Below, piece after piece: positions 7,569-33,251 of a stretch of 33,302 bases of DNA (position 1 is the stretch's first letter; each line of letters opens with the position of its first letter). Both the position numbers and the translations under genes were made by a program. The stretch spans positions 1 to 33,302 of the forward strand of contig JAPLSJ010000073.1 in NCBI GenBank assembly GCA_026398695.1, in the 5' to 3' direction. This DNA comes from Arenimonas sp. (lineage in GTDB: Bacteria; Pseudomonadota; Gammaproteobacteria; Xanthomonadales; Xanthomonadaceae). Under the pieces are notes generated by a model. It was not told the DNA's origin. It worked only from the letters and a program-made list of their open reading frames with translations, and made no database searches.

Positions 7569-10500
7569 TCAGAACTCGTAGCGGATGGTGAACTGCGCGG
7601 CCCACGAAGACTCGCCCTTGGCCTGGCGGTTGACTTCGTTCTCGACGTTGCCGACGTTGTAGACGTAGTTGCCGGTGACGGCGTCGATGCCGTTGTACCA
7701 GACGAAGCTGCGGTTGGACGGGAAGCCGATCTCGTCGATCTGTCCCCAATCCTTGTTGATCAGGTTGCCGATGTTGAGGATGTCCAGGGAGATGACGGTC
7801 TTGTTGCCTTCGAAGAAGCCCGGCAGGTCCTGGCTGATGCGCACATCGAACGAGTTGATCCAGGGGTTGTAGTCGCTGTTGCGCTCGACCACGCCACCGA
7901 TGCTGCTGCGCAGCGCCGGGTTGGCGTTGACGATCGCCCAGAACGCGGCCGCTTCGTCGGCCGTGCCCGCGGCGGAACCGGCGCGGTCGCGGAACGAGAT
8001 CTGGTCCGGGTTCGGGATGTACATCAGGTCGTTGCCGGAGATGCCGTCGCCGTTGAAGTCGTTGATGTAGGTCCAGCTGTACGGCTTGCCGCGACGACCT
8101 TCATAGAACACGCCGATCTCGGTCTTGTAGCCCTCGAAGAAGTACTGGCGGAACTGCAGGGCGCCCGAGAAGCGATCCTTGACCAGATAGTTGGAGGTCG
8201 CTTCGACTTCCTCGTTCGGGTTGAAGATCATGCGGCCGTTCCAGTTCGAGTTCGAAGTGGACGAGGTCAGCGGGCTGACGTCGGTGGCATCGGCGTAGGT
8301 GTAGGCCAGGCTCCAGGCCCAGTCATTGGACATCGGCTTGGACAGCGACACGGTCAGCATCTCGCCGTGGCCCTTGTCGCTCGACTTGGCCAGCAGCACG
8401 TTGTTGAAGGCCGAGTTGCTGCGGGCGCGCGAAGTGACGCTGGTGGGCACGCCGGTGGCGCTCCAGTTGGCCGGGTTGTAGCCGTTGACGCTCCAGTACA
8501 GCTCGCGGCCGTCCGGGCCGATGCGGGTGGCTTCGCCCAGGTTCAGGTGCTCGTAGAAGATGCCGGTTTCGGTCTTCGTGAGCAGCAGCTCGGCCGAGGC
8601 AACCAGGCCCCAGAACGGAAGCTCATGCTCGAAGGCCAGGTTGGCCTTCCAGATCGACGGCTGCTCCAGGCCCGGGTCGATGATGTCGACGTTGGCCGCC
8701 GGCTGGACGCCGACCGGACGCGGCTGCGCATCCGGGTTCGCGCTGAAGATCGGCGTGGCGCAGGCCGGGGACGAGCCGCCGCAAGCGAAGATCTGCGTGG
8801 CCAGGCCGGTGTTGGAGTACGGGTTGGACAGCCAGACGTTGGCCGCCGCGCCCTGGAACAGGCCGAAGCCGCCGCGCAGCTGGGTCGGGCGCTCGCTGTC
8901 GAAGGTGTAGTTGAAGCCGAAGCGCGGCTGCAGCAGTTCCTTGCCGTCGATGGTGACGCTGTTGTCGTAGCCGAAGCCGCCGGTCTGGCGACCGAACGGA
9001 CCCGCGCCGGCGATGACGGCGGCGTTGGCGGCGGCGTTGTACAGCGGCGACTCGTCGATGTTCGGCGTGTCAAGGCGCAGGCCGGCCATCAGGGTCAGGT
9101 TGTAGTTGACCGACCAGGTGTCCTGGAGGAACACGCCGATGTTCTGGTTGGACCACTGCGCGGCACCGTCCTGCAGGGTCAGGCCGGTGCGCGGCTGCTG
9201 CGAGGTGTAGGTGAACGGGCGGCCGGACGCGAAGCTGTTGGCGCAGGTGATCTCGAGGCACGAGAACACGTAGCTGCCGTTGGTGTTCTGCAGGAACGCG
9301 TTGAAGATCTCGTTGTCGTCGTAGTCGACGCCGAACTTCAGCTCGTGGTCGCCCACGAACAGGTTGCCGGCGAAGTACGCGCTGAGCGTCTCGGTGTTGA
9401 GCTGGTTGAACTGGCGGCTGAGCTCGGTGCCCATCGTCAGCGTGGTGTTGCCGGTCGGCAAGCCCGGCACGGCCGGGTTGCTGAACTGGATGGCGATGCT
9501 GGGCAGGCGCGAAGCGTTGTTGAAGACGCTGTCGTAGTCGCGGCGGGCGACCTTGAGCTCGGTCGAGAAGTTCTCGGTCCAGTCGCTGAACAGCTGGCCG
9601 ACGACGCTCTCGAACAGCTTTTCCTGGGTGGTCCAATGCGAGGACAGCGACAGGTTGCGGATGCCGAAGCCGTAGTAGATCGGCTCGGACTGCTCGGTCT
9701 TGTTGTAGCGCAGGCTGAAGCGGTGGGCGTCGGTGATGTTCCAGTCAAGCTTGATCAGCGAGTCTTCGACGGTCAGCTCGTTGCCTTCCGGGAACTCGGA
9801 GGTGCCCACGTCCATGCCGTACAGGGTCTGGGCGAGGACGATGGCGCGGTCGATCTGCGCCTGGGTGATGTTGACGTTGGTGAACTGGCTGCCGATCGGG
9901 CCGAATTCCGGCGCGTTGCGCGAGCTGGAGAACTCTTCGTACGCGACGAAGAAGAACAGGCGGTCCTTGATCAGCGGGCCACCGAAGGTGAAGCCCATCG
10001 TCTCTTCCTCGAACGCCGGGGCATCGAAGAAGTCGCCGCTGGTGGTGTTGAGGCGGTCGCCGGCGAAGTTGTCGTCGCGGTAGACGTAGGTCAGCGAGCC
10101 CTTGAACTCGTTGGTGCCCGACTTGGTGACGGCGTTGATGTTGGCGCCGGTGTAGGCGGTCTGGGTGACGTCGTAGTTCGAGACGTTCACCTGCACCGAC
10201 TCGATGGTGTCGATCGAGATCGGCTGCTTGGCGGTCGGCAGGTTGTTGGCTTCCAGGCCGAAGGTGTCGCTGGTGTTCACGCCGTCAATGGTGACGGAGT
10301 TGAAGCGGCTGTTCTGGCCACCCAGCGAGATTTCGCCGCGCTCCTTGTCGGTCTGCGACAGGCGCGGATCGAGGCGGGCGTAGTCCTGCAGGTTGCGGTT
10401 GATCGAGGCGTAGGCGTCGAGCTGCTCGCGGTTGACCGAGGTGGTGGCGCCCATGTTGTCGGCGCTGAACACTTCGGACAACACGGCCGTGCCGGTGACT

Positions 10501-10871
10501 TCAACGGCCGCCAGGGTGGTGGCTTCCTCGCCGAGCGTGGCATCGACCGCGGTGGTCTCGGCCAGCTGCAGGTAAACGCCTTCGCGGGTTTCGCTCACGC
10601 CGTCCTTGACGATGGTGATCGTGTACGGGCCGCCGACGCGCAGGCCGCGCGCGGAGTAGCGGCCGTCAGCGCCAGTGGTGGCGTTGCTGACGGTGCCCGA
10701 CGGGGCGTGCACGATGGTCACCTGGGCGCCGACGACCGGCTGGGAATCGCTGCCGACAATGCGGCCGCCGAGGGCGGAGGTGGTGTTCTGGGCGAAGGCC
10801 GGCGCCGCTGCGAGGGCGATGGCGAGGCCGAGGGAGAGCTGCGACAGCCGAACCCGGTTGCGATTGGTCAT
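7569..10871 (-). CDS. Oar-like TonB-dependent outer membrane receptor with carboxypeptidase-regulatory-like N-terminal domain
   Basis: This 1100-residue protein has a signal peptide (about 1-27, ending PAFA), then a carboxypeptidase regulatory-like beta domain (about 33-110) with GRIVGSDSQPVVGAQVTIV. A plug domain follows (about 140-250), with IDTIESVQVNVSNYDV and INAVTKSGTNEFKGS, typical of Oar-like receptors. The rest is a long beta barrel ending in the aromatic residue F (TIRYEF), as needed for outer membrane insertion. Oar-like receptors import or export large or poorly known substrates in an energy-dependent way; the substrate cannot be told from sequence. No clear TonB box was recognised. 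The gene stands alone between a terminator and a leader of about 130 bases. Confidence 0.9.
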   Translation of the reverse strand: MTNRNRVRLSQLSLGLAIALAAAPAFAQNTTSALGGRIVGSDSQPVVGAQVTIVHAPSGTVSNATTGADGRYSARGLRVGGPYTITIVKDGVSETREGVYLQLAETTAVDATLGEEATTLAAVEVTGTAVLSEVFSADNMGATTSVNREQLDAYASINRNLQDYARLDPRLSQTDKERGEISLGGQNSRFNSVTIDGVNTSDTFGLEANNLPTAKQPISIDTIESVQVNVSNYDVTQTAYTGANINAVTKSGTNEFKGSLTYVYRDDNFAGDRLNTTSGDFFDAPAFEEETMGFTFGGPLIKDRLFFFVAYEEFSSSRNAPEFGPIGSQFTNVNITQAQIDRAIVLAQTLYGMDVGTSEFPEGNELTVEDSLIKLDWNITDAHRFSLRYNKTEQSEPIYYGFGIRNLSLSSHWTTQEKLFESVVGQLFSDWTENFSTELKVARRDYDSVFNNASRLPSIAIQFSNPAVPGLPTGNTTLTMGTELSRQFNQLNTETLSAYFAGNLFVGDHELKFGVDYDDNEIFNAFLQNTNGSYVFSCLEITCANSFASGRPFTYTSQQPRTGLTLQDGAAQWSNQNIGVFLQDTWSVNYNLTLMAGLRLDTPNIDESPLYNAAANAAVIAGAGPFGRQTGGFGYDNSVTIDGKELLQPRFGFNYTFDSERPTQLRGGFGLFQGAAANVWLSNPYSNTGLATQIFACGGSSPACATPIFSANPDAQPRPVGVQPAANVDIIDPGLEQPSIWKANLAFEHELPFWGLVASAELLLTKTETGIFYEHLNLGEATRIGPDGRELYWSVNGYNPANWSATGVPTSVTSRARSNSAFNNVLLAKSSDKGHGEMLTVSLSKPMSNDWAWSLAYTYADATDVSPLTSSTSNSNWNGRMIFNPNEEVEATSNYLVKDRFSGALQFRQYFFEGYKTEIGVFYEGRRGKPYSWTYINDFNGDGISGNDLMYIPNPDQISFRDRAGSAAGTADEAAAFWAIVNANPALRSSIGGVVERNSDYNPWINSFDVRISQDLPGFFEGNKTVISLDILNIGNLINKDWGQIDEIGFPSNRSFVWYNGIDAVTGNYVYNVGNVENEVNRQAKGESSWAAQFTIRYEF

Positions 10872-22593: not shown

Positions 22594-23952
22594 ATGCCCG
22601 TGAACTCGCCCGCCAAGGGCAAGCTCTTCATCAAGACCCACGGCTGCCAGATGAACGAGTACGACTCGGCCCGCATCGCCGACGTGCTGGGCGCCGAGCA
22701 CGGCCTGGAGCTCACCTCGGTGGAAGCCGAGGCCGACGTCATCCTGGTCAACACCTGCTCCATCCGCGAGCGCGCCGAGGACAAGATGTTCTCGCTGATC
22801 GGCAAGTGGAAGCACCTCAAGCGCGACAAGCCGGTGCTGATCGGCGTCGGCGGCTGCGTGGCCAGCCAGGAGGGCGAGGCCCTGCTCAAGCGCGCGCCCT
22901 GGGTGGACCTGGTGTTCGGCCCCCAGACCCTGCACCGGCTGCCCGGCATGATCGACGCCGCGCGCGCGTCCGGCCGGCCCCAGGTGGACATCAGCTTCCC
23001 CGAGGTGGAGAAGTTCGACCGCATGCCCGAGCCGCGCGCCGAGGGCGCCAGCGCCTTCGTGTCGGTGATCGAGGGCTGCAGCAAGTACTGCTCGTTCTGC
23101 GTGGTGCCCTACACGCGCGGCGAGGAAGTGTCGCGGCCGCTGGACGACGTGCTGGTGGAAGTGGCCAGCCTGGTGGCCCAGGGCGTCAGCGAAGTGCACC
23201 TGCTGGGCCAGAACGTCAACGCCTACCGCGGCCCGATGGCCGACGGCGACGTGGCCGACCTGGCCTTCCTGCTGCGCGCGGTGGCCCAGCTCGAGGGCGT
23301 GCAGCGCATCCGCTACACCACCTCGCACCCGGTGGAGTTCAGCGACGCGCTGGTGGAGGCGCACCGCGACATCCCGCAGCTGGCCAGCTTCCTGCACCTG
23401 CCGGTGCAGTCGGGCTCGGACCGCATCCTGGCGGCGATGAAGCGCGGCCACACGGTGCTGGAGTACAAGGCGAAGATCCGCCGCATCCGCGAGGCCAAGC
23501 CGGGCATTTCCATCAGCTCGGACTTCATCGTCGGCTTCCCGGGCGAAACCGACCGCGATTTCGAGGCCACGATGAAGCTGGTGGACGAGATCGGGTTCGA
23601 CCAGAGTTTCTCCTTCGCCTACTCGCGCCGTCCGGGCACGCCCGCCGCCAACCTGCACGACGAGGTGCCGGCCGATGTCGCCAATGCGCGCCTGCGCCGG
23701 CTGCAGGCCGCCATCAACGACAGCGCGCGGCGCATTTCCGAGGCCATGGTGGGCACCGTGCAGCGCGTGCTGGTGGAAGGCCCCAGCGCCCGCGACCCGC
23801 ACGAGCTCACCGGCAAGACGGAAAACATGCGCAACGTGAACTTCCCCGGGCAGCCGCGGCTGGTGGGCCGGTTCGTGGACGTGCGCATCACCGAGGCCCG
23901 CGCCAATTCGCTGCGCGGCGAAATCCTCACCCGCGAAGGCGTCGCCGCATGA
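22594..23952 (+). CDS. miaB: tRNA-2-methylthio-N6-dimethylallyladenosine synthase MiaB
   Basis: MiaB adds the methylthio group to i6A37 of tRNAs reading U-starting codons. The 452-residue product has an N-terminal UPF0004 domain with the auxiliary cluster cysteines C18, C55 and C88, and a radical SAM domain with C162-x3-C166-x2-C169 in [12 protein letters not shown]-terminal TRAM domain (about 380-448) has [10 protein letters not shown] and VDVRITEA. Start at the ATG at 22594; the frame is open upstream into the intergenic region without better support. It overlaps phoH by ATGA and begins the conserved miaB-phoH-ybeY-corC cluster. Confidence 0.97.
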
Positions 23953-24920
23953 GCAAGCCCCATCACCGCGATTTCGTCCTGGAACCCGAGGACAACGAAC
24001 GCCTGGCCAACCTGTGCGGCGCCTTCGACGAGCACCTGCGCCAGATGGAGCTGCGGCTGGGCGTGGAGATCGCCAACCGCGGCCACGTGTTCCGCGTGAC
24101 CGGCGAAGCCAAGGCCGCCGCCGCCGCGGAAAAGCTGCTGCACGCACTTTACGAAGAGGCCGCCACCGAGACGCTCGACGCCCACGCCATCCACAACCAC
24201 CTGGGCAGCGCCCACCTCGAGCGCGTGGTGGACGGTTACGAGCCGCAGGACGTGGCCATCAAGGTCAAGCGCGGCACCGTGCGCGGCCGCGGCGCCAACC
24301 AGGCCAAGTACCTGCACGCCATCACCACCCACGACATCAACTTCGGCATCGGACCGGCCGGTACCGGCAAGACTTTCCTGGCCGTGGCCAGCGCGGTCGA
24401 GGCGCTGAATGAATCGCGCGTGCAGCGCCTGCTGCTGGTGCGCCCGGCGGTGGAAGCCGGCGAAAAGCTCGGCTTCCTGCCCGGCGACCTGAGCCAGAAG
24501 GTCGACCCCTACCTGCGCCCGCTCTACGACGCGCTGTATGAAATGCTGGGCGTGGAGAAGGTGGCCAAGCTGCTCGAGCGCAACGTCATCGAGATCGCGC
24601 CGCTGGCCTACATGCGCGGCCGCACGCTCAACGACGCCTACGTGATCCTGGACGAGGCGCAGAACACCTCGGTCGAGCAGATGAAGATGTTCCTGACCCG
24701 CATCGGCTTCGGCAGCACGGCCGTCATCACCGGCGACCTGAGCCAGATCGACCTGCCCAAGCACCAGAAGTCGGGCCTGCGCGACGCCATCGACGTGCTG
24801 CGCGGGGTGGAGGGCATCAGCTTCACCTTCTTCACCGCCCACGACGTGGTGCGGCATCCGCTGGTGGCGCGCATCGTGCGGGCATACGATGCCCGGGACG
24901 GCAAGGAGTCGCAGGAATGA
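23949..24920 (+). CDS. ybeZ: PhoH family P-loop ATPase YbeZ
   Basis: The 323-residue protein has an N-terminal KH-like region (about 10-90) and a PhoH ATPase domain with Walker A GPAGTGKT (135-142), [16 protein letters not shown] (165-180), Walker B VILDEAQN (232-239) and [11 protein letters not shown]. YbeZ works with YbeY and is linked to rRNA processing; an RNA-related helicase or nuclease-partner role is inferred for the family. Stop overlaps the ybeY start as ATGA, and the start overlaps miaB in the same way, so the three proteins are likely made together. Confidence 0.96.
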
Positions 24921-25378
24921 CCCAGGGTCCCGTGCAACTGGATGTGAGCGTGAGCTACGGCCTGCCCCGCGCCGGCCTGCCGGCCGCGGTGAGTTTCCGC
25001 CGCTGGGCCGCCGCGGCCGCCCAGGGCCGCATCAAGCGCGCCGACCTGGCCATCCGGCTGGTGGACGCCAAGGAGGGCCGGGCCCTGAACCGGCACTACC
25101 GCGGCAAGGACTACGCCACCAACGTGCTGAGCTTCCCGGTGGAGCTGCCCCCGGGCGTGGTGCTGCCCCTGCTGGGCGACCTGGTGATCTGCGCCCCCGT
25201 GGTGGCCAAGGAGGCCCTGGAACAGGGCAAGCCCCTGGCCGCGCACTACGCCCACCTCACGGTGCACGGCGTGCTGCACCTGCTGGGCCTGGACCACGAG
25301 GACGAGCGCGAGGCCGAGGCCATGGAACAGCTCGAGCGCGACATCCTGGCCAAACTGGGCCTCCCCGACCCCTACTGA
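24917..25378 (+). CDS. ybeY: Endoribonuclease YbeY (16S rRNA 3' end maturation)
   Basis: YbeY is a zinc endoribonuclease needed for 16S rRNA 3' processing and 70S quality control. The 153-residue product has the metal site [11 protein letters not shown] (H117, H121, H127) and [17 protein letters not shown], which carries the conserved arginine. Length fits the family. It is third in miaB-ybeZ-ybeY. One base after its stop begins the 61-bp palindrome that separates it from corC. Confidence 0.96.
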
Positions 25379-25379
25379 A

Positions 25380-25440
25380 GAAAACATACCAGGTACATTT
25401 TCAGTCTCATTGAGACTGAAAATGTACCTGGTATGTTTTC
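25380..25440. repeat. Perfect 61-bp AT-rich palindrome after ybeY
   Basis: Arms 25380-25409 and 25411-25440 (30 bp each) are exact inverted copies about one unpaired base (25410). The arm begins GAAAACATACCAGGTACA and has 11 G/C of 30, far below the surrounding genes. Because the left end is A-rich and the right end ends GTTTTC, an RNA from either strand would form a long hairpin closing in a U-rich 3' side, so it can act as a two-way terminator. It may also be a dispersed or mobile repeat; no other copy is seen here. Confidence 0.9.
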
Positions 25441-25463
25441 GTCTTCCGCTCCCGTGGTGGGGT

Positions 25464-25469
25464 TACAAT
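25464..25469 (+). promoter_or_regulatory. -10 element before corC
   Basis: TACAAT stands 36 bases before the corC ATG and 23 bases after the palindrome. A -35 at the right distance is poor. It would let corC-DUF4105-corA be transcribed apart from ybeY. Confidence 0.4.
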
Positions 25470-25505
25470 CCGGGGCCCGCCCCCGTTGGCGCCTGCCTTA
25501 CCGAG

Positions 25506-26354
25506 ATGTCCGAAGATTCCCCTAGTAGCCCGCCGGAACGCCGCTCCTGGCTTGAACGCCTGAGCCTGGCCTTTTCCGGCGAACCCCAGACCCGGGAAGA
25601 CCTGGTCGAAATCCTGCGCGACGCCCAGGCCAACGGCCTGGTCACGCCCGACACCCTGAAGATGCTCGAGGGCGCCCTCTCGGTGTCCGAGCAGCAGGTG
25701 GGCGACATCATGGTGCCGCGTTCCCAGATGGTGTCCCTGCCGCTGGACTCGAAGTTCCTGGACCTGATGAAGATGGTGGTCGAGTCCGGCCACTCGCGCT
25801 TCCCGGTCCACGGCGAAGACCGCGACCAGATCCTCGGCATCCTGCTGGCCAAGGACCTGCTGCGCGGCATGGTGGCCGACGGCGGCCCGTCCACGGTGCG
25901 CGAACTGCTGCGCCCGGCGGTGCTGATCCCCGAATCCAAGCGCCTGAACGTGCTGCTGAAGGAGTTCCGGCTCTCGCGCAACCACATGGCCATCGTGGTG
26001 GACGAACACGGCGGCGTGGCCGGCCTGGTCACCATCGAGGACGTGCTGGAGCAGATCGTCGGCGAAATCGACGACGAGCACGACGACGCCGACGAGGCCA
26101 AGCTGATCGCCGCCCAGTCCGACGGCCAGTTCATGGTGGACGCATTGACGCCGATCGCCGATTTCAACGACCAGTTTGGCGCCGACTTCGACGACGACGA
26201 ATACGACACCATCGGCGGCCTGGTCACCTCGGCCATCGGCCACCTGCCGGAGGCGGGCGAGGAGCTGTCCCTGGGCCGCTTCCACTTCCGCGTCGGCCGG
26301 GCCGACGCGCGCCGCGTGCACACCTTCGTGCTGAGCGTGCATGCGCCCGACTGA
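25506..26354 (+). CDS. corC: CBS-domain protein CorC/YbeX
   Basis: The 282-residue cytoplasmic protein has two CBS domains (about 66-125 and 135-188) with DIMVPRSQM, ILGILLAKDLLRG and VDEHGGVAGLVTIEDVLEQIVGEI, then an acidic linker and a CorC_HlyC transporter-associated domain (about 203-280). It lacks the N-terminal DUF21 membrane domain of longer relatives, as in E. coli YbeX. It is linked to magnesium/cobalt efflux with CorA and, in newer work, to ribosome physiology. The start at 25506 fits the family; the frame reads back through the palindrome without support. It overlaps the next gene by 14 bases. Confidence 0.94.
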   Translation: MSEDSPSSPPERRSWLERLSLAFSGEPQTREDLVEILRDAQANGLVTPDTLKMLEGALSVSEQQVGDIMVPRSQMVSLPLDSKFLDLMKMVVESGHSRFPVHGEDRDQILGILLAKDLLRGMVADGGPSTVRELLRPAVLIPESKRLNVLLKEFRLSRNHMAIVVDEHGGVAGLVTIEDVLEQIVGEIDDEHDDADEAKLIAAQSDGQFMVDALTPIADFNDQFGADFDDDEYDTIGGLVTSAIGHLPEAGEELSLGRFHFRVGRADARRVHTFVLSVHAPD

Positions 26355-27522
26355 TCGGCGCGGCGCCTTCGCCCTCCTGCTGTGGCTGGCCCTGCTGCTG
26401 GCCCCGGCGCTGGCCGCCGCCGCGCCGCGCATCGGCGTGGTGACGATGGAGCCGGGCGGCATCTTCTTCGAGCGCTTCGGCCACAACGCGCTGCTGGTGC
26501 AGGACGACTCCGCCGGCACGGCCACGTCCTACAACTTCGGCTACTTCGACATGGACGAGCCGGACTTCTTCGGCAACTTCGTCCGCGGCCACATGAAGTA
26601 CTGGCTGGTGGCGCTGCCGCTGGACGACGACCTGGCGCGCTACGCGCAGACCGGCCGCGGCGTCGGCGTGCAGTGGCTCGAGCTCACGCCGGAAGCGGCC
26701 ACCGCGCTCGCCGCGGCGCTGGCCGAAAACGCCCGCCCCGAAAACGCGCAGTACCGCTACGACTACTACACCAGCAACTGCTCCACCAAGGTCCGCGACG
26801 CCATCGACGTGGCGCTGGGCGGCGCCCTGCAGCCCCAGCTGTCGGGCCGCTCGCAGGGCAATACCTACCGCAGTGAATCGGTGCGCCTGGCCTCGCCCGC
26901 GCCGTGGATGGCGCTGGGCTTCCACCTGGGCCTGGGCGGATTCGCCGACCGGCCCCTGTCGCGCTGGGACGAGTCGTTCATCCCGATGCGCCTGCGCGAC
27001 GCACTGCGCGAAGTGAAGCTGGCCGACGGCCGTCCGCTGGTGGCCAGCGAACAGGTCCTGCTGCCGCACCGGGTGGCCCCCGCGCCGGCCGAAGCGCCGC
27101 GGCTGCGCACCGGTGCCTTCTTCGCCGGGCTGGTGCTGGCCGGCCTGGCCCTGTGGTCGGCGCGCCGCGCGCCGCGCGCACTGGCGGCCGGCGCCCTGCT
27201 TTTCTGGACCGTTGCCGGCGTCGCCGGCACGGTGATGGCCCTGATCTGGCTGGCGACCGAGCACGTGGCCGGCCACGGCAACCAGAACCTGCTGCTGCTC
27301 AGCCCGCTGAGCCTGTTCCTGCTGCCCGGCGCCTGGGCGAAGCTGCGCGGCCGCGAGCCGTCGCAGCGCTTCCGCTGGCTGCTCTGGGCCGTTGCCGGCA
27401 GCGCCGCGCTGGCCGGCTTCCTCAAGTTCCTGCCGTTCGTGGTGCAGGAAAACGTCGAATGGGTGCTGCTGCTCCTGCCGCTGCACTGGGCCCTGCTGCG
27501 CAGTTTCGACCCACCGCGCTGA
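26341..27522 (+). CDS. DUF4105 (Lnb N-terminal domain) membrane protein, possible lipoprotein N-acyl transferase
   Basis: The 393-residue protein has an N-terminal signal or anchor helix (about 9-28). A periplasmic domain follows with GGIFFERFGHNALLV (H48) and DYYTSNCSTKVRDAID (C147), the His and Cys blocks of DUF4105. About five C-terminal membrane helices lie between 265 and 388. This domain is the N-terminal domain of Lnb, which in enterococci and relatives moves an acyl chain within lipoproteins to the N-terminal cysteine. The gene overlaps corC and precedes corA, in the place where E. coli has lnt (apolipoprotein N-acyltransferase). A lipoprotein-modifying role is inferred; a different thiol hydrolase or transferase role is possible. 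The other end of the protein has no recognised domain. Confidence 0.75.
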   Translation: MRPTDRRGAFALLLWLALLLAPALAAAAPRIGVVTMEPGGIFFERFGHNALLVQDDSAGTATSYNFGYFDMDEPDFFGNFVRGHMKYWLVALPLDDDLARYAQTGRGVGVQWLELTPEAATALAAALAENARPENAQYRYDYYTSNCSTKVRDAIDVALGGALQPQLSGRSQGNTYRSESVRLASPAPWMALGFHLGLGGFADRPLSRWDESFIPMRLRDALREVKLADGRPLVASEQVLLPHRVAPAPAEAPRLRTGAFFAGLVLAGLALWSARRAPRALAAGALLFWTVAGVAGTVMALIWLATEHVAGHGNQNLLLLSPLSLFLLPGAWAKLRGREPSQRFRWLLWAVAGSAALAGFLKFLPFVVQENVEWVLLLLPLHWALLRSFDPPR

Positions 27523-27562: not shown

Positions 27563-28573
27563 ATGAACGAAGCCCTGCCGCCCATTCCGCCGATTGCACC
27601 CGCCAGCGTGGTGAACTGCGCCGCCTACACGCGCGAAGGCAAACGCCGCGAGATCTCGCTGGAACAGGTGAGCGACGTACTGGCGGTGGACGACGGCAGC
27701 TGGGTGTGGGTCGGCCTGCATGAGCCGGACGAAATCCTGCTCGACCAGCTGCAGGATGAATTCGACCTGCACGACCTGGCCGTGGAGGACGCCCACCACG
27801 CCCACCAGCGCCCCAAGATCGAGGCCTACGGCAACTCCCTGTTCATCGCCGTGCACACCGCCCAGGGCGTGAAGGGCCAGGTGGCCTTCGGCGAAACCCA
27901 CGTATTCATGGGCGCGCGCTACCTGCTCACCGTGCGCCACGGCGCCTCCCTGTCCTACGCACCGGTGCGCAGCCGCTGCGAGCGTGAGCCCGAGCTGCTG
28001 GCCATGGGCCCGAGCTATGGCCTGTACGCCGTGCTCGACTTCATCGTCGACAACTACCTGCCGATCGTCGATGAGTTCCGCGAGAAGCTCAACGAACTCG
28101 AGCAGGACATCTTCGCCGAAAGCTTCAGCCGCGGCACCGTCATCAAGCTCTACGAGCTCAAGCGCGAACTCACCCGCCTGCGGCTGGCCGTGGCGCCCAT
28201 GCAGGACATCACCGGCCAGCTCACCCGCGTGCACACGGGCCTGGTGGGCGAAGAGATGCGGCTGTATTTCCGCGACGTGTTCGACCACACGCTGCGCGTG
28301 AACGACGCCACCGACACCCTGCGCGAAATGCTCACCGCCGCCATGTCCGTGAACCTGGCACTGGTGACCGTGGCCCAGGGCGAGGTGGTCAAGCGCCTGG
28401 CCGGCTGGGCCGGCCTGCTGGCCGCGCCCACGCTGGTCGCCAGCTGGTATGGCATGAATTTCAAGCACATGCCCGAGCTCGCCGGCCGCTACAGCTACCT
28501 GGCCCTGGTGGGCGTCACGGTGGCGATCGTGGCCGGGCTGTTCGTCGTGCTGCGCCGCGCCAAGTGGATCTGA
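27563..28573 (+). CDS. corA: Magnesium/cobalt channel CorA family protein
   Basis: CorA-type proteins are pentameric Mg2+/Co2+ channels. The 336-residue product has a soluble N-terminal domain with WVGLHEPDEILLDQLQDEFDLH, a long helix with ELEQDIFAESFSR and LKRELTRLRLAVAPMQD, and two membrane helices at the C-terminus. The signature YGMNF (296-300) lies at the end of the first. The basic tail LRRAKWI is typical. The ATG at 27563 gives the normal length; upstream in-frame text belongs to the overlap with the DUF4105 gene. With CorC two genes away, a metal-transport link is likely. Confidence 0.94.
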   Translation: MNEALPPIPPIAPASVVNCAAYTREGKRREISLEQVSDVLAVDDGSWVWVGLHEPDEILLDQLQDEFDLHDLAVEDAHHAHQRPKIEAYGNSLFIAVHTAQGVKGQVAFGETHVFMGARYLLTVRHGASLSYAPVRSRCEREPELLAMGPSYGLYAVLDFIVDNYLPIVDEFREKLNELEQDIFAESFSRGTVIKLYELKRELTRLRLAVAPMQDITGQLTRVHTGLVGEEMRLYFRDVFDHTLRVNDATDTLREMLTAAMSVNLALVTVAQGEVVKRLAGWAGLLAAPTLVASWYGMNFKHMPELAGRYSYLALVGVTVAIVAGLFVVLRRAKWI

Positions 28574-30899: not shown

Positions 30900-30913
30900 T
30901 TGACCTGGGTCAG
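30900..30913. promoter_or_regulatory. FNR/DNR-type box before the NO reductase gene
   Basis: TTGACCTGGGTCAG resembles TTGAT-N4-ATCAA, with TTGAC and GTCAG half-sites. A class II site centred here would start transcription near 30948, about 20 bases before the ATG, with GGAGAG as ribosome site. Confidence 0.7.
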
Positions 30914-30968
30914 GGACACACGCATGCCACGCGCCGAGCATGACGACATCCTGAACCGGAGAGTTGTC

Positions 30969-33251
30969 ATGAACAGTACACGCAAGCTATGGATCGCACT
31001 CGCGATCTTGCTCGGCGTCTCGTTTTCCGTCCTGCTTTGGGTCGGCGGCGAGATCCACCGGGAGATGCCACCGATGCCCGAGCAGGTGGTCACCCGCAGC
31101 GGCCAGGTGGTCTTCACCCGCGCCGACATCGAAACCGGGCGTCAGGTCTGGCAGTCCACCGGCGGCCAGCAGCTGGGCTCGATCTGGGGCCACGGCAGCT
31201 ACGTGGCGCCGGACTGGACCGCGGACTGGCTGCACCGCGAGGCCGTGGACATCCTCGACCAGTGGGCGCGCCGCGACCACCAGGTGGCCAACTACGCCGC
31301 GCTGGGCGCCCCTGAACAGGCCGCGCTGTCGGCCCGCCTGCAGGCGATGATGCGTCCGAACACCTTCGACCCGCAGACGCGCTCGGTGGTGATCGACGAC
31401 GAGCGCGCCATGGCCATCGCCAACGTCTCGGCGCACTACCAGAGCCTGCTGGGCAACGACCCCGCCACGGCCGAACTGCGCGAACAGTACGCAATGAAGA
31501 ACAACACCGTCGCCGACGCCGGCCACCGCCGCGCGATGACGGCTTTCTACTGGTGGACTGCCTGGTCGGCGGTCACCCAGCGCCCGGGCAAGGACATCAC
31601 CTACACCAACAACTGGCCGCACGAGCCGCTGGTGGGCAATACGCCGCCCGCGAACCTGTTCCTGTGGACGGTGTTCAGCGTGCTGTTCCTGATCGCGGGC
31701 ATCGCGCTGCTGGGCTGGCACTACGCCGTCAACCACAGCCGCGAGGAAGCGCCGCTGCAGCTGCCGGCCACCGACCCGCTGGCCGCGGTGGTGGTGACGC
31801 CTTCGATGAAGGCCACCGCGAAGTACTTCTGGGTGGTGATGGCGCTTTTCCTCGTGCAGATCCTGCTGGGCGCGATCACCGCCCATTACCAGGTGGAGGG
31901 ACAGGAAGCCTATGGCTTCTCGCTGGCCGAGTACCTTCCCTACGCGCTGACGCGCACCTGGCATACGCAGTTGGCGGTGCTGTGGATCGCCACGGCCTGG
32001 CTGGGCATGGGCCTGTACATCGGACCGGCGATTTCCGGGCATGAGCCGAAGTTCCAGGCCCTGGGCGTGCACGTGCTGTGGGTGTGCCTGATCATCATCG
32101 TGGTCGGTTCGTTCGCGGGCCAGTGGTTCGCGGTGATGCAGAAGCTGGGCCTGGCCAACAACTTCTGGTGGGGCCACCAGGGCTGGGAATACGTGGACAT
32201 GGGCCGGTTCTGGCAGTGGTTCCTGTTCGCGGGCCTGGGCATCTGGCTGACGCTGGTGGGTCGCTGCCTCGTCCCGGCCATCCGCGCCGGCGGCGAATCG
32301 CGCTCGATCACCACGCTGCTGTTCCTGTCCACCATCGCGATCGGCCTGTTCTACGGCGCCGGCCTGATGTGGGGCGAGCACACGCACCTGTCGATGGTCG
32401 AATACTGGCGCTGGTGGGTGGTGCACCTGTGGGTGGAGGGCTTCTTCGAGGTCTTCGCCGTCGCGGTGGTCGCCTTCCTGTTCACCAAGCTGGGCCTGAT
32501 CAAGGTGAAGACGGGCACGGTGGCCACCCTGTTCGCCACCATCGTGTTCATGGCCGGCGGCGTGCTGGGCACCCTGCACCACCTGTACTTCACCGGCACG
32601 CCGGTGGCGGTGATCGCGCTGGGTGCGTCGTTCTCGGCGCTGGAAGTGGTGCCGCTGGCGTACGTGGGCTTCGAGGCCTACCACACGTTCAAGCTGGGCC
32701 ACGCCACGCCCTGGATGCAGCGCTACAAGTGGCCGATCCTGTTCTTCGTGGCGGTGGCCTTCTGGAACCTGGTGGGCGCCGGCCTGTTCGGCTTCCTGAT
32801 CAACCCGCCGCTGCCGCTGTACTACATGCAGGGCCTCAACCTGACCCCGCTGCACGGCCACACGGCGCTGTTCGGTGTTTACGGCATGCTGGGCATCGGC
32901 CTGATGCTGTTCTGCCTGCGTGGACTGAAGCCGGATGCGATCTGGCCCGAAGCCCCGCTGCGCACGGCGTTCTGGTCGCTCAACATCGGCCTGGTGTGCA
33001 TGGCGCTGTTCACGCTGCTTCCGATCGGCATCCTGCAGTTGATCGCGGCGATCGACCACGGCTACTGGTTCGCGCGTTCGGCCGACTTCATGCAGCAGCC
33101 GCTGATCGAGATGCTGGTCTGGATGCGCGTGCCCGGCGACACGATCTTCAGCGTCGGTGCGCTGTCGCTGGCCTGGTTCGTGGCCCGCCTCTGGATCGCG
33201 CCCCGCAAGGCCCCGGCCAAGCTGGAAGGAGCGACCGAAGCCGCGCGCTGA
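30969..33251 (+). CDS. norZ: Single-subunit quinol-dependent nitric oxide reductase (qNOR)
   Basis: qNOR reduces two NO to N2O with quinol electrons. The 760-residue product has an N-terminal helix and a periplasmic NorC-like domain without a haem c motif (about 30-225), the mark of qNOR as opposed to cytochrome-dependent NorB. A catalytic domain of about 12 helices follows. Metal ligands are visible: H332 (TRTWHTQLAVLW), H486 with E490 (VVHLWVEGFFEVF), H537-H538 (GTLHHLYFTG), and H629 and H631 (PLHGHTALFG). The ATG at 30969 has GGAGAG before it; the open frame starts earlier in the FNR box, which is not coding. No norC, norD or norQ is adjacent, as expected for a stand-alone detoxifying qNOR. 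Confidence 0.95.
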   Translation: MNSTRKLWIALAILLGVSFSVLLWVGGEIHREMPPMPEQVVTRSGQVVFTRADIETGRQVWQSTGGQQLGSIWGHGSYVAPDWTADWLHREAVDILDQWARRDHQVANYAALGAPEQAALSARLQAMMRPNTFDPQTRSVVIDDERAMAIANVSAHYQSLLGNDPATAELREQYAMKNNTVADAGHRRAMTAFYWWTAWSAVTQRPGKDITYTNNWPHEPLVGNTPPANLFLWTVFSVLFLIAGIALLGWHYAVNHSREEAPLQLPATDPLAAVVVTPSMKATAKYFWVVMALFLVQILLGAITAHYQVEGQEAYGFSLAEYLPYALTRTWHTQLAVLWIATAWLGMGLYIGPAISGHEPKFQALGVHVLWVCLIIIVVGSFAGQWFAVMQKLGLANNFWWGHQGWEYVDMGRFWQWFLFAGLGIWLTLVGRCLVPAIRAGGESRSITTLLFLSTIAIGLFYGAGLMWGEHTHLSMVEYWRWWVVHLWVEGFFEVFAVAVVAFLFTKLGLIKVKTGTVATLFATIVFMAGGVLGTLHHLYFTGTPVAVIALGASFSALEVVPLAYVGFEAYHTFKLGHATPWMQRYKWPILFFVAVAFWNLVGAGLFGFLINPPLPLYYMQGLNLTPLHGHTALFGVYGMLGIGLMLFCLRGLKPDAIWPEAPLRTAFWSLNIGLVCMALFTLLPIGILQLIAAIDHGYWFARSADFMQQPLIEMLVWMRVPGDTIFSVGALSLAWFVARLWIAPRKAPAKLEGATEAAR

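Follow-up and report, generated by a model that had tools for sequence, protein, structure and literature searches.

A putative Lnb-type lipoprotein N-acyltransferase at the genomic site of lnt in Arenimonas and other Lysobacterales

Lnt is treated as the N-acyltransferase of the Proteobacteria and as an antibacterial target. The described enzyme closest to the one considered here is Lnb, a lipoprotein N-acyltransferase of Bacteroides that acts on diacylated lipoproteins (PMC12994826) and adds a third acyl chain (PMC13103446); its identification is credited to Armbruster 2024, PNAS, by PMC12994826, PMC13103446, PMC12345273, and PMC13251419. Lit, found in Firmicutes, also N-acylates lipoproteins, acting as an intramolecular transferase whose product is a lyso-lipoprotein (PMC12345273; PMC13251419). 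Here we describe an Lnb-like gene in a 33,302-nucleotide contig of an Arenimonas genome (JAPLSJ010000073.1; the whole of this stretch is called the window below), where it stands directly downstream of corC, at the site that lnt holds in Escherichia coli K-12. With a probability that we put at roughly 0.85, the product of this gene is an Lnb-type lipoprotein N-acyltransferase, a function predicted from its sequence and a structure model, and our best reading of its distribution is that an enzyme of this type has replaced Lnt in place across the order.

The host genome (2.76 Mb in 137 contigs, 89% complete; the window is its contig C58) has Arenimonas species as its closest named relatives. We call their order Lysobacterales, which we take to be another name for Xanthomonadales and which also appears in record titles. 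A preliminary description of the window had presented Lnb as a Firmicutes enzyme that forms lyso-lipoproteins; this was a confusion with Lit, Lnb being the Bacteroides N-acyltransferase (PMC12345273; PMC13251419; PMC12994826). The idea that Lnt and DUF4105 proteins interchange is not wholly new because PMC12994826, from 2026, already reported three genomic contexts with repeated displacement of DUF4105 by Lnt. The main text of that article makes no mention of Xanthomonas, Lysobacter, or Gammaproteobacteria, and our literature search, whose coverage left out most subscription journals, found no report of Lnb in Lysobacterales. The present finding would extend a known Bacteroides enzyme to a new major group.

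Family, architecture, and conserved residues of the protein

In a Pfam scan, the 393-amino-acid (aa) window protein matches two domains above their gathering thresholds: Lnb_N, i.e., DUF4105 (62.5 versus 22.2 bits, E = 4.7e-17, residues 33-161), and 5TMH_Lnb (38.2 versus 25.2 bits, E = 1.8e-9, residues 265-378). The scan gave no other domain, so that LNT_N, CN_hydrolase, and the domain of Lit (presumably DUF1461/PF07314) were all missing from its result; the assignment to DUF4105 and the Lnb family in the preliminary description therefore holds. Both Lnb domains are found at E ≤ 0.001 in all 64 members of alignment A2, which comprises the window protein and the proteins of 63 of 80 named loci. 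On NF051878, the NCBIfam model of Lnb, the protein scores 177.5 bits (E = 3.7e-52) over model positions 26 to 380 of 394, and a profile-profile alignment with hhalign of 18 Lysobacterales proteins to 4 Bacteroidota proteins reached a probability of 100 (E = 7.2e-58, 336 columns).

The window protein thus shares with Bacteroides Lnb (NF051878; PF13387 plus PF25221) the domain order, a length of about 390 aa, the His/Cys pair, and the H-N-P residues of the membrane domain, and the two align over nearly their full lengths. What differs is the phylum and the setting, since the window gene follows corC in a gammaproteobacterial genome and lnb of Bacteroides finegoldii adjoins a gene of the alkaline-phosphatase family. 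Lnt (TIGR00546) has in common with the window protein the presumed reaction and the genomic place after corC, but it is built from LNT_N and a nitrilase domain rather than from Lnb_N and 5TMH_Lnb. A further group of DUF4105 proteins, of about 640 aa and associated with DUF7840, DUF7842, and DUF7843, has the Lnb_N domain but no 5TMH_Lnb in the two that were scanned (L147 and L153), and the genomes of these two (G124 and G130) carry Lnt as well.

His48 (in FGHNA) and Cys147 (in SNCST) are intact, as had been described before. A catalytic role of the pair in Lnb is assumed from the superfamily (PMC12994826). The invariance of both residues in alignments A1 and A2 and in all 80 named loci is partly a matter of selection, as the search patterns included those motifs. 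A second set, found by profile hidden Markov model (HMM), keeps H48, C147, H308, N314, and P322 in 50 of 50 loci that match the window protein; this set began as 57 loci, from which 7 Lnb_N matches lacking a tblastn match to the window protein were left out, and the 50 include the window itself and some loci that share a genome. The same five residues are kept in all four Bacteroidota homologues, and an alignment of nine sequences has 27 invariant residues, including G47-H48, N146-C147, and H308, N314, and P322 of the membrane domain.

The AlphaFold model of the window protein (pLDDT 93.1, pTM 0.86) consists of an N-terminal helix (residues 3-24), a mixed domain in which a strand starts at H48 and a helix at C147, and five C-terminal helices of at least 14 residues (256-276, 278-305, 322-335, 342-362, and 373-389), which agrees with the five membrane helices noted earlier from the sequence. 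The top fold match in the PDB is TseH (6v98), a permuted NlpC/P60 protein (probability 1.00; E = 0.016, weak by E-value), and this accords with the grouping of DUF4105 with Tox-Act1 and TseH in PMC12994826. No relevant solved structure of Lnb came out of sequence searches. The permuted NlpC/P60 group (TseH, Tox-Act1, LRAT, and YiiX) differs from the window protein in that its members are effectors or lipid enzymes and, we presume, lack the five-helix membrane domain.

Gene order and the distribution of Lnb and Lnt

The lnb-like open reading frame (ORF) lies on the plus strand, starts with ATG, and overlaps the corC ORF by 14 bases. Read along the plus strand, the window has the order miaB, phoH/ybeZ, ybeY, corC, the lnb-like gene, corA, hemN, and E. 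coli K-12 has miaB-ybeZ-ybeY-ybeX-lnt at the equivalent site, so the earlier placement of the gene in the position of lnt is borne out. The identities of YbeY, CorC, CorA, and HemN were checked with Pfam, and those of miaB and phoH by tblastn against other genomes only, E. coli among them. In all 80 named loci, which are the best 80 of at least 564 relative-encoding stretches in named bacterial genomes, corC lies directly upstream of lnb in the same orientation, the two matches being −11 to 551 bases apart (median 97); these loci were found via Lnb, and the adjacency therefore tells place and not frequency. Given this adjacency and a dN/dS of 0.19 against the nearest Arenimonas copy of lnb, which indicates purifying selection, the window ORF is not a chance one. 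Two metagenome-assembled genomes (MAGs) labeled Rhizobium sp. and Ramlibacter sp. (L069 and L073) also contain an Arenimonas-like corC-lnb pair, their Lnb being 75% and 96% identical to that of the window; they are probably mislabeled or contaminated.

The same place is occupied by lnt in four of five class genomes from other orders (G140, G174, G333, and G204), the five having been picked by their lnt; in the fifth, G343, none of miaB, phoH, ybeY, or corC lies near lnt. Within the order, lnt directly follows corC in the Lnt-bearing members G041 and G051, although in G041 ybeY, phoH, and miaB were not seen close to the pair. A third such member, G053, has a miaB-phoH-ybeY-corC-lnt operon (L213:5348-11202) with 30 to 49% identity to the window genes. 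Because of this low identity and the very long branch of its CorC in a CorC tree, the operon looks foreign to its order, or the genome misclassified.

The bare Lnb_N domain was rejected as a marker, as it matches 85 of 323 class genomes, many through frames of about 650 or 350 aa; four such proteins were scanned (two of about 640 aa, one of 348, and one of 318), and none has 5TMH_Lnb. Lnb was therefore counted by full-length matches to NF051878. By this measure, 158 of 160 genomes in the order sample have Lnb, and a canonical Lnt of about 300 bits is found only in G051 and G053, the two that lack Lnb. Lnt relatives at E ≤ 1e-15 occur in 35 of the 160 genomes, in 17 of them over the model cutoff, and 125 genomes have none at that limit. 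A sample of 61 relatives gives the same picture when searched with Lnb_N, which is found in 56. Five have no match: G007 (85% complete), G015 (74% complete), and the trio G041, G051, and G053, the sole genomes of the 61 whose Lnt scores near 300 bits; in 22 of the 61, an Lnt relative exceeds the cutoff.

In the class sample, 301 of 323 genomes have Lnt at E ≤ 1e-30, and full-length Lnb (E < 1e-40) is confined to six, namely five of the order (the host G000, G036, G206, G302, and G047) and one of another order, G380; 27 further genomes match NF051878 by its N-terminal part only. Lnb occurs without Lnt at E ≤ 1e-30 in G036, G206, and G302, and the sole Lnt match at this limit in G000 and G047 is the long Lnt-like form discussed below. 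G380 has the order miaB-phoH-ybeY-corC-lnb and no Lnt at E ≤ 1e-10. In the phylum sample, Lnb at E ≤ 1e-12 is found in 12 of 397 genomes, all of them from the order. We also searched for Lnt in G380 and in 48 isolates (not MAGs, completeness not stated) from the 80 named loci. No Lnt relative at E ≤ 1e-10 was found in 40 of the 48, which include Lysobacter, Luteimonas, Pseudoxanthomonas, Arenimonas, and related genera; among the other eight, six have a match over the cutoff, in frames of 820 to 873 aa, and two have one under it. Arenimonas metalli and A. caeni are species in which Lnb occurs together with the long gene.

Other Lnt-like and Lnb_N-containing genes were seen in these searches. 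Three genomes carry Lnt-like genes of about 500 aa over the cutoff beside Lnb (G005, L056; G018, C35:13388-14569; G401, L182), and in L056 the catalytic region reads CWES. A different set of frames, of 470 to 551 aa, matches the first 278 or so positions of the Lnt model at 84 to 114 bits in 16 order-sample genomes of family f12 (L057 and L183-L195, among others). The class genome G102, listed as 100% complete, has two Lnb_N frames of about 590 to 630 aa and no Lnt at E ≤ 1e-30 and is possibly a further variant of N-acylation.

A CorC tree built for dating the swap (24 of 32 sequences, those with a CorC of more than 200 aa by the start rule, eight being dropped) had an unresolved backbone. In an Lnb tree of 28 sequences, G380 and 21 of 23 order members form a group separate from the four Bacteroidota sequences (support 98/95); the two remaining order members, both of family f8, are placed with uncertainty.

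Proposed mechanism and competing explanations

We propose that Lnb would be a thiol acyltransferase with a Cys/His pair, held in the periplasm by an anchor of five membrane helices, and that in Lysobacterales it would have taken the place of Lnt, an unrelated enzyme of the nitrilase type, at the corC-lnt site. Lgt and Lsp, presumably present, would first make diacylglyceryl-cysteine, whose amino terminus is free. With His48 as its activator, Cys147 would then take an acyl chain, probably from a phospholipid, as a thioester and pass it to that amino group. Since Lnb adds an acyl chain to diacylated lipoproteins, the expected product is triacyl, like that of Lnt, and this N-acylated lipoprotein would go on to a LolF-type export system.

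The preliminary description had pointed to a need of the Lol pathway for triacylated lipoproteins, and this obstacle appears weaker than claimed. A LolC/E-family protein over the TIGR02212 cutoff is present in 58 of the 61 relatives, with one such copy listed per genome, which is the number expected of the LolF pattern; several of the 61, the host included, carry extra LolC/E relatives under the cutoff. Species that tolerate the loss of lnt have LolF, and LolF with LolD is described as the commonest form (PMC11784454). A LolF ancestor would make the passage from Lnt to Lnb survivable. We lean toward the broader proposal that almost all Lysobacterales, with Xanthomonas and its relatives among them, N-acylate their lipoproteins by Lnb and not by Lnt, following an old displacement in place at the corC-lnt site and with a LolF-type exporter that tolerated an N-acylation-poor intermediate. 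Xanthomonas itself would be expected to carry lnb from the family-wide result.

Several results weigh against these conclusions. The score of the window protein on NF051878 lies under the equivalog cutoff of 550 bits, so that it is not counted as an NCBIfam equivalog; its identity to the Bacteroidota proteins is just 25 to 28%; and the PDB fold search gave no significant match (best E = 0.016). The NF051878 cutoff seems to mark near kin of the Bacteroides enzyme and not the whole family, because a Hymenobacter homologue, at 220 bits, is also under it, while the Bacteroides finegoldii protein scores 667. In the order sample, 15 of the 158 Lnb genomes have an Lnt-like gene over the cutoff, and the mutual exclusion of Lnb and Lnt is consequently strict for canonical Lnt only. 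The class sample includes 18 genomes with neither Lnt (E ≤ 1e-30) nor full-length Lnb, three of them of 0.3 to 0.4 Mb, so Lnb does not always come in where the lnt slot is empty. The compared genomes are related to one another, and their counts are not counts of independent events.

A further point of this kind is that the host itself has an Lnt-like gene, at C100:9207-11666 (L002:1303-3762), near a gene for a GDSL hydrolase. Its 820-aa product scores 183 bits on TIGR00546, over the cutoff of 132.9, and has LNT_N and CN_hydrolase up to residue 491, followed by about 320 more residues. In all 18 aligned long forms, the residue equivalent to W237 of E. coli Lnt is L, M, Q, or R, Y388 is replaced by L, and E389 by D (CLD for CYE), at positions that we take to be needed in the E. 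coli enzyme; the canonical Lnt proteins of G041, G051, and G053 keep CYE. The same 18 keep the equivalents of E267, K335, and C387, the Lnt triad (PMC8048626). Complete members of the long-form family (L002 and 17 relatives, L039-L055) mostly have 800 to 850 aa; the family is marked by CLD at the catalytic Cys and by the C-terminal extension of about 320 aa. The long forms are sporadic, frames of 821 to 916 aa being found in 12 of 160 order genomes.

These properties bear on whether Lnb is a substitute for Lnt or an addition to it, an alternative that the preliminary description had left standing. If it were an addition, the 820-aa protein would do the housekeeping N-acylation and the DUF4105 protein would serve, for example, in the remodeling of phospholipids or lipoproteins. 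The score, domains, and triad of the 820-aa protein are what such a division of labor would call for, and DUF4105 relatives of other architectures do coexist with Lnt. We nevertheless regard it as improbable, as the long form is found in 12 order genomes versus 158 with Lnb, Lnt relatives at E ≤ 1e-15 are missing from 125 of the 160, the long forms have other residues than E. coli Lnt at W237, Y388, and E389, and it is Lnb, not the Lnt-like gene, that occupies the position beside corC. A search for lnt elsewhere in the genome, which had been proposed as a test, thus does find a relative, but we read it, from its sequence, as a divergent paralogue with another task, absent in most relatives; in the minority of species that carry the gene, it might act as an additional N-acyltransferase. 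Replacement, for its part, has strong support across the order in the distribution of Lnb and Lnt.

Two other explanations concern the product. According to one, the order lacks an N-acyltransferase and its lipoproteins stay diacylated; the DUF4105 protein would then be a membrane-lipid hydrolase that lies beside corC by chance. No lnt was found in Xanthomonas campestris B100, and diacyl anchors were assumed in modeling LolA and LolB (Front Microbiol 2023, PMC10368991); LolF-type transport, if that is what the single LolC/E copy represents, would tolerate such forms. That study looked for Lnt, however, and its accessible text does not mention DUF4105. The presence of Lnb in 158 of 160 genomes, with canonical Lnt only where Lnb is missing, fits two enzymes doing the same job better, and we hold diacyl lipoproteins throughout the order to be very improbable. 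The least probable explanation in our estimate is that the window protein acylates intramolecularly, like Lit, and forms lyso-lipoproteins. In its favor are the general link between N-acylation and a free amino terminus and the ability of LolCDE to accept Lit products (PMC11784454), but the characterized Bacteroides Lnb adds a third chain (PMC13103446) and acts on diacylated lipoproteins (PMC12994826), and Pfam finds only Lnb_N and 5TMH_Lnb in the window protein.

If Lnb has indeed replaced Lnt, a whole gammaproteobacterial order uses another enzyme, which changes the inhibitors that can work there, and the "missing" lnt gene of the order is explained. Lnb would offer an answer other than diacyl anchors for the Lnt-free X. 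campestris, and the anchor assumption of the Xanthomonas LolA/LolB study (PMC10368991) would be wrong. The prediction is that Xanthomonas-order bacteria without Lnt have triacylated lipoproteins. As a natural experiment, the order could also show whether lipoprotein export is constrained by the exporter or by the acyltransferase.

Features of the window

Table 1. Coordinates of the lnb-like gene, its domains, and its neighbors in the window
Feature	Position	Strand	Basis and remarks
miaB, tRNA methylthiotransferase	22594..23952	+	ORF; order as in E. coli and syntenic loci; start codon presumed
phoH/ybeZ	23949..24920	+	4-base overlap with miaB; kept gene order
ybeY, endoribonuclease	24917..25378	+	PF02130, E = 6e-33
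corC/ybeX (CBS + CorC_HlyC)	25410..26354	+	PF03471, E = 5.9e-20; longest ORF, real start perhaps further in
lnb-like gene, putative lipoprotein N-acyltransferase	26341..27522	+	PF13387 + PF25221; NF051878; hhalign to Bacteroidota Lnb
Lnb_N, putative catalytic domain, predicted permuted NlpC/P60-type fold	26437..26823	+	His48 at 26482-26484, Cys147 at 26779-26781
5TMH_Lnb, predicted five-helix membrane domain	27106..27507	+	PF25221, residues 265-378; H308, N314, and P322 inside
corA, magnesium transporter	27563..28573	+	Downstream neighbor; PF01544, E = 7.9e-56; start presumed

Two genes farther from this cluster were also noted in the window. Positions 7569-10871 of the minus strand encode an outer-membrane beta-barrel protein of 1100 aa with a CarboxypepD_reg domain, and positions 30900-33251 encode a NorB-type nitric oxide reductase (PF22085 plus COX1), for which a TTG start is listed.

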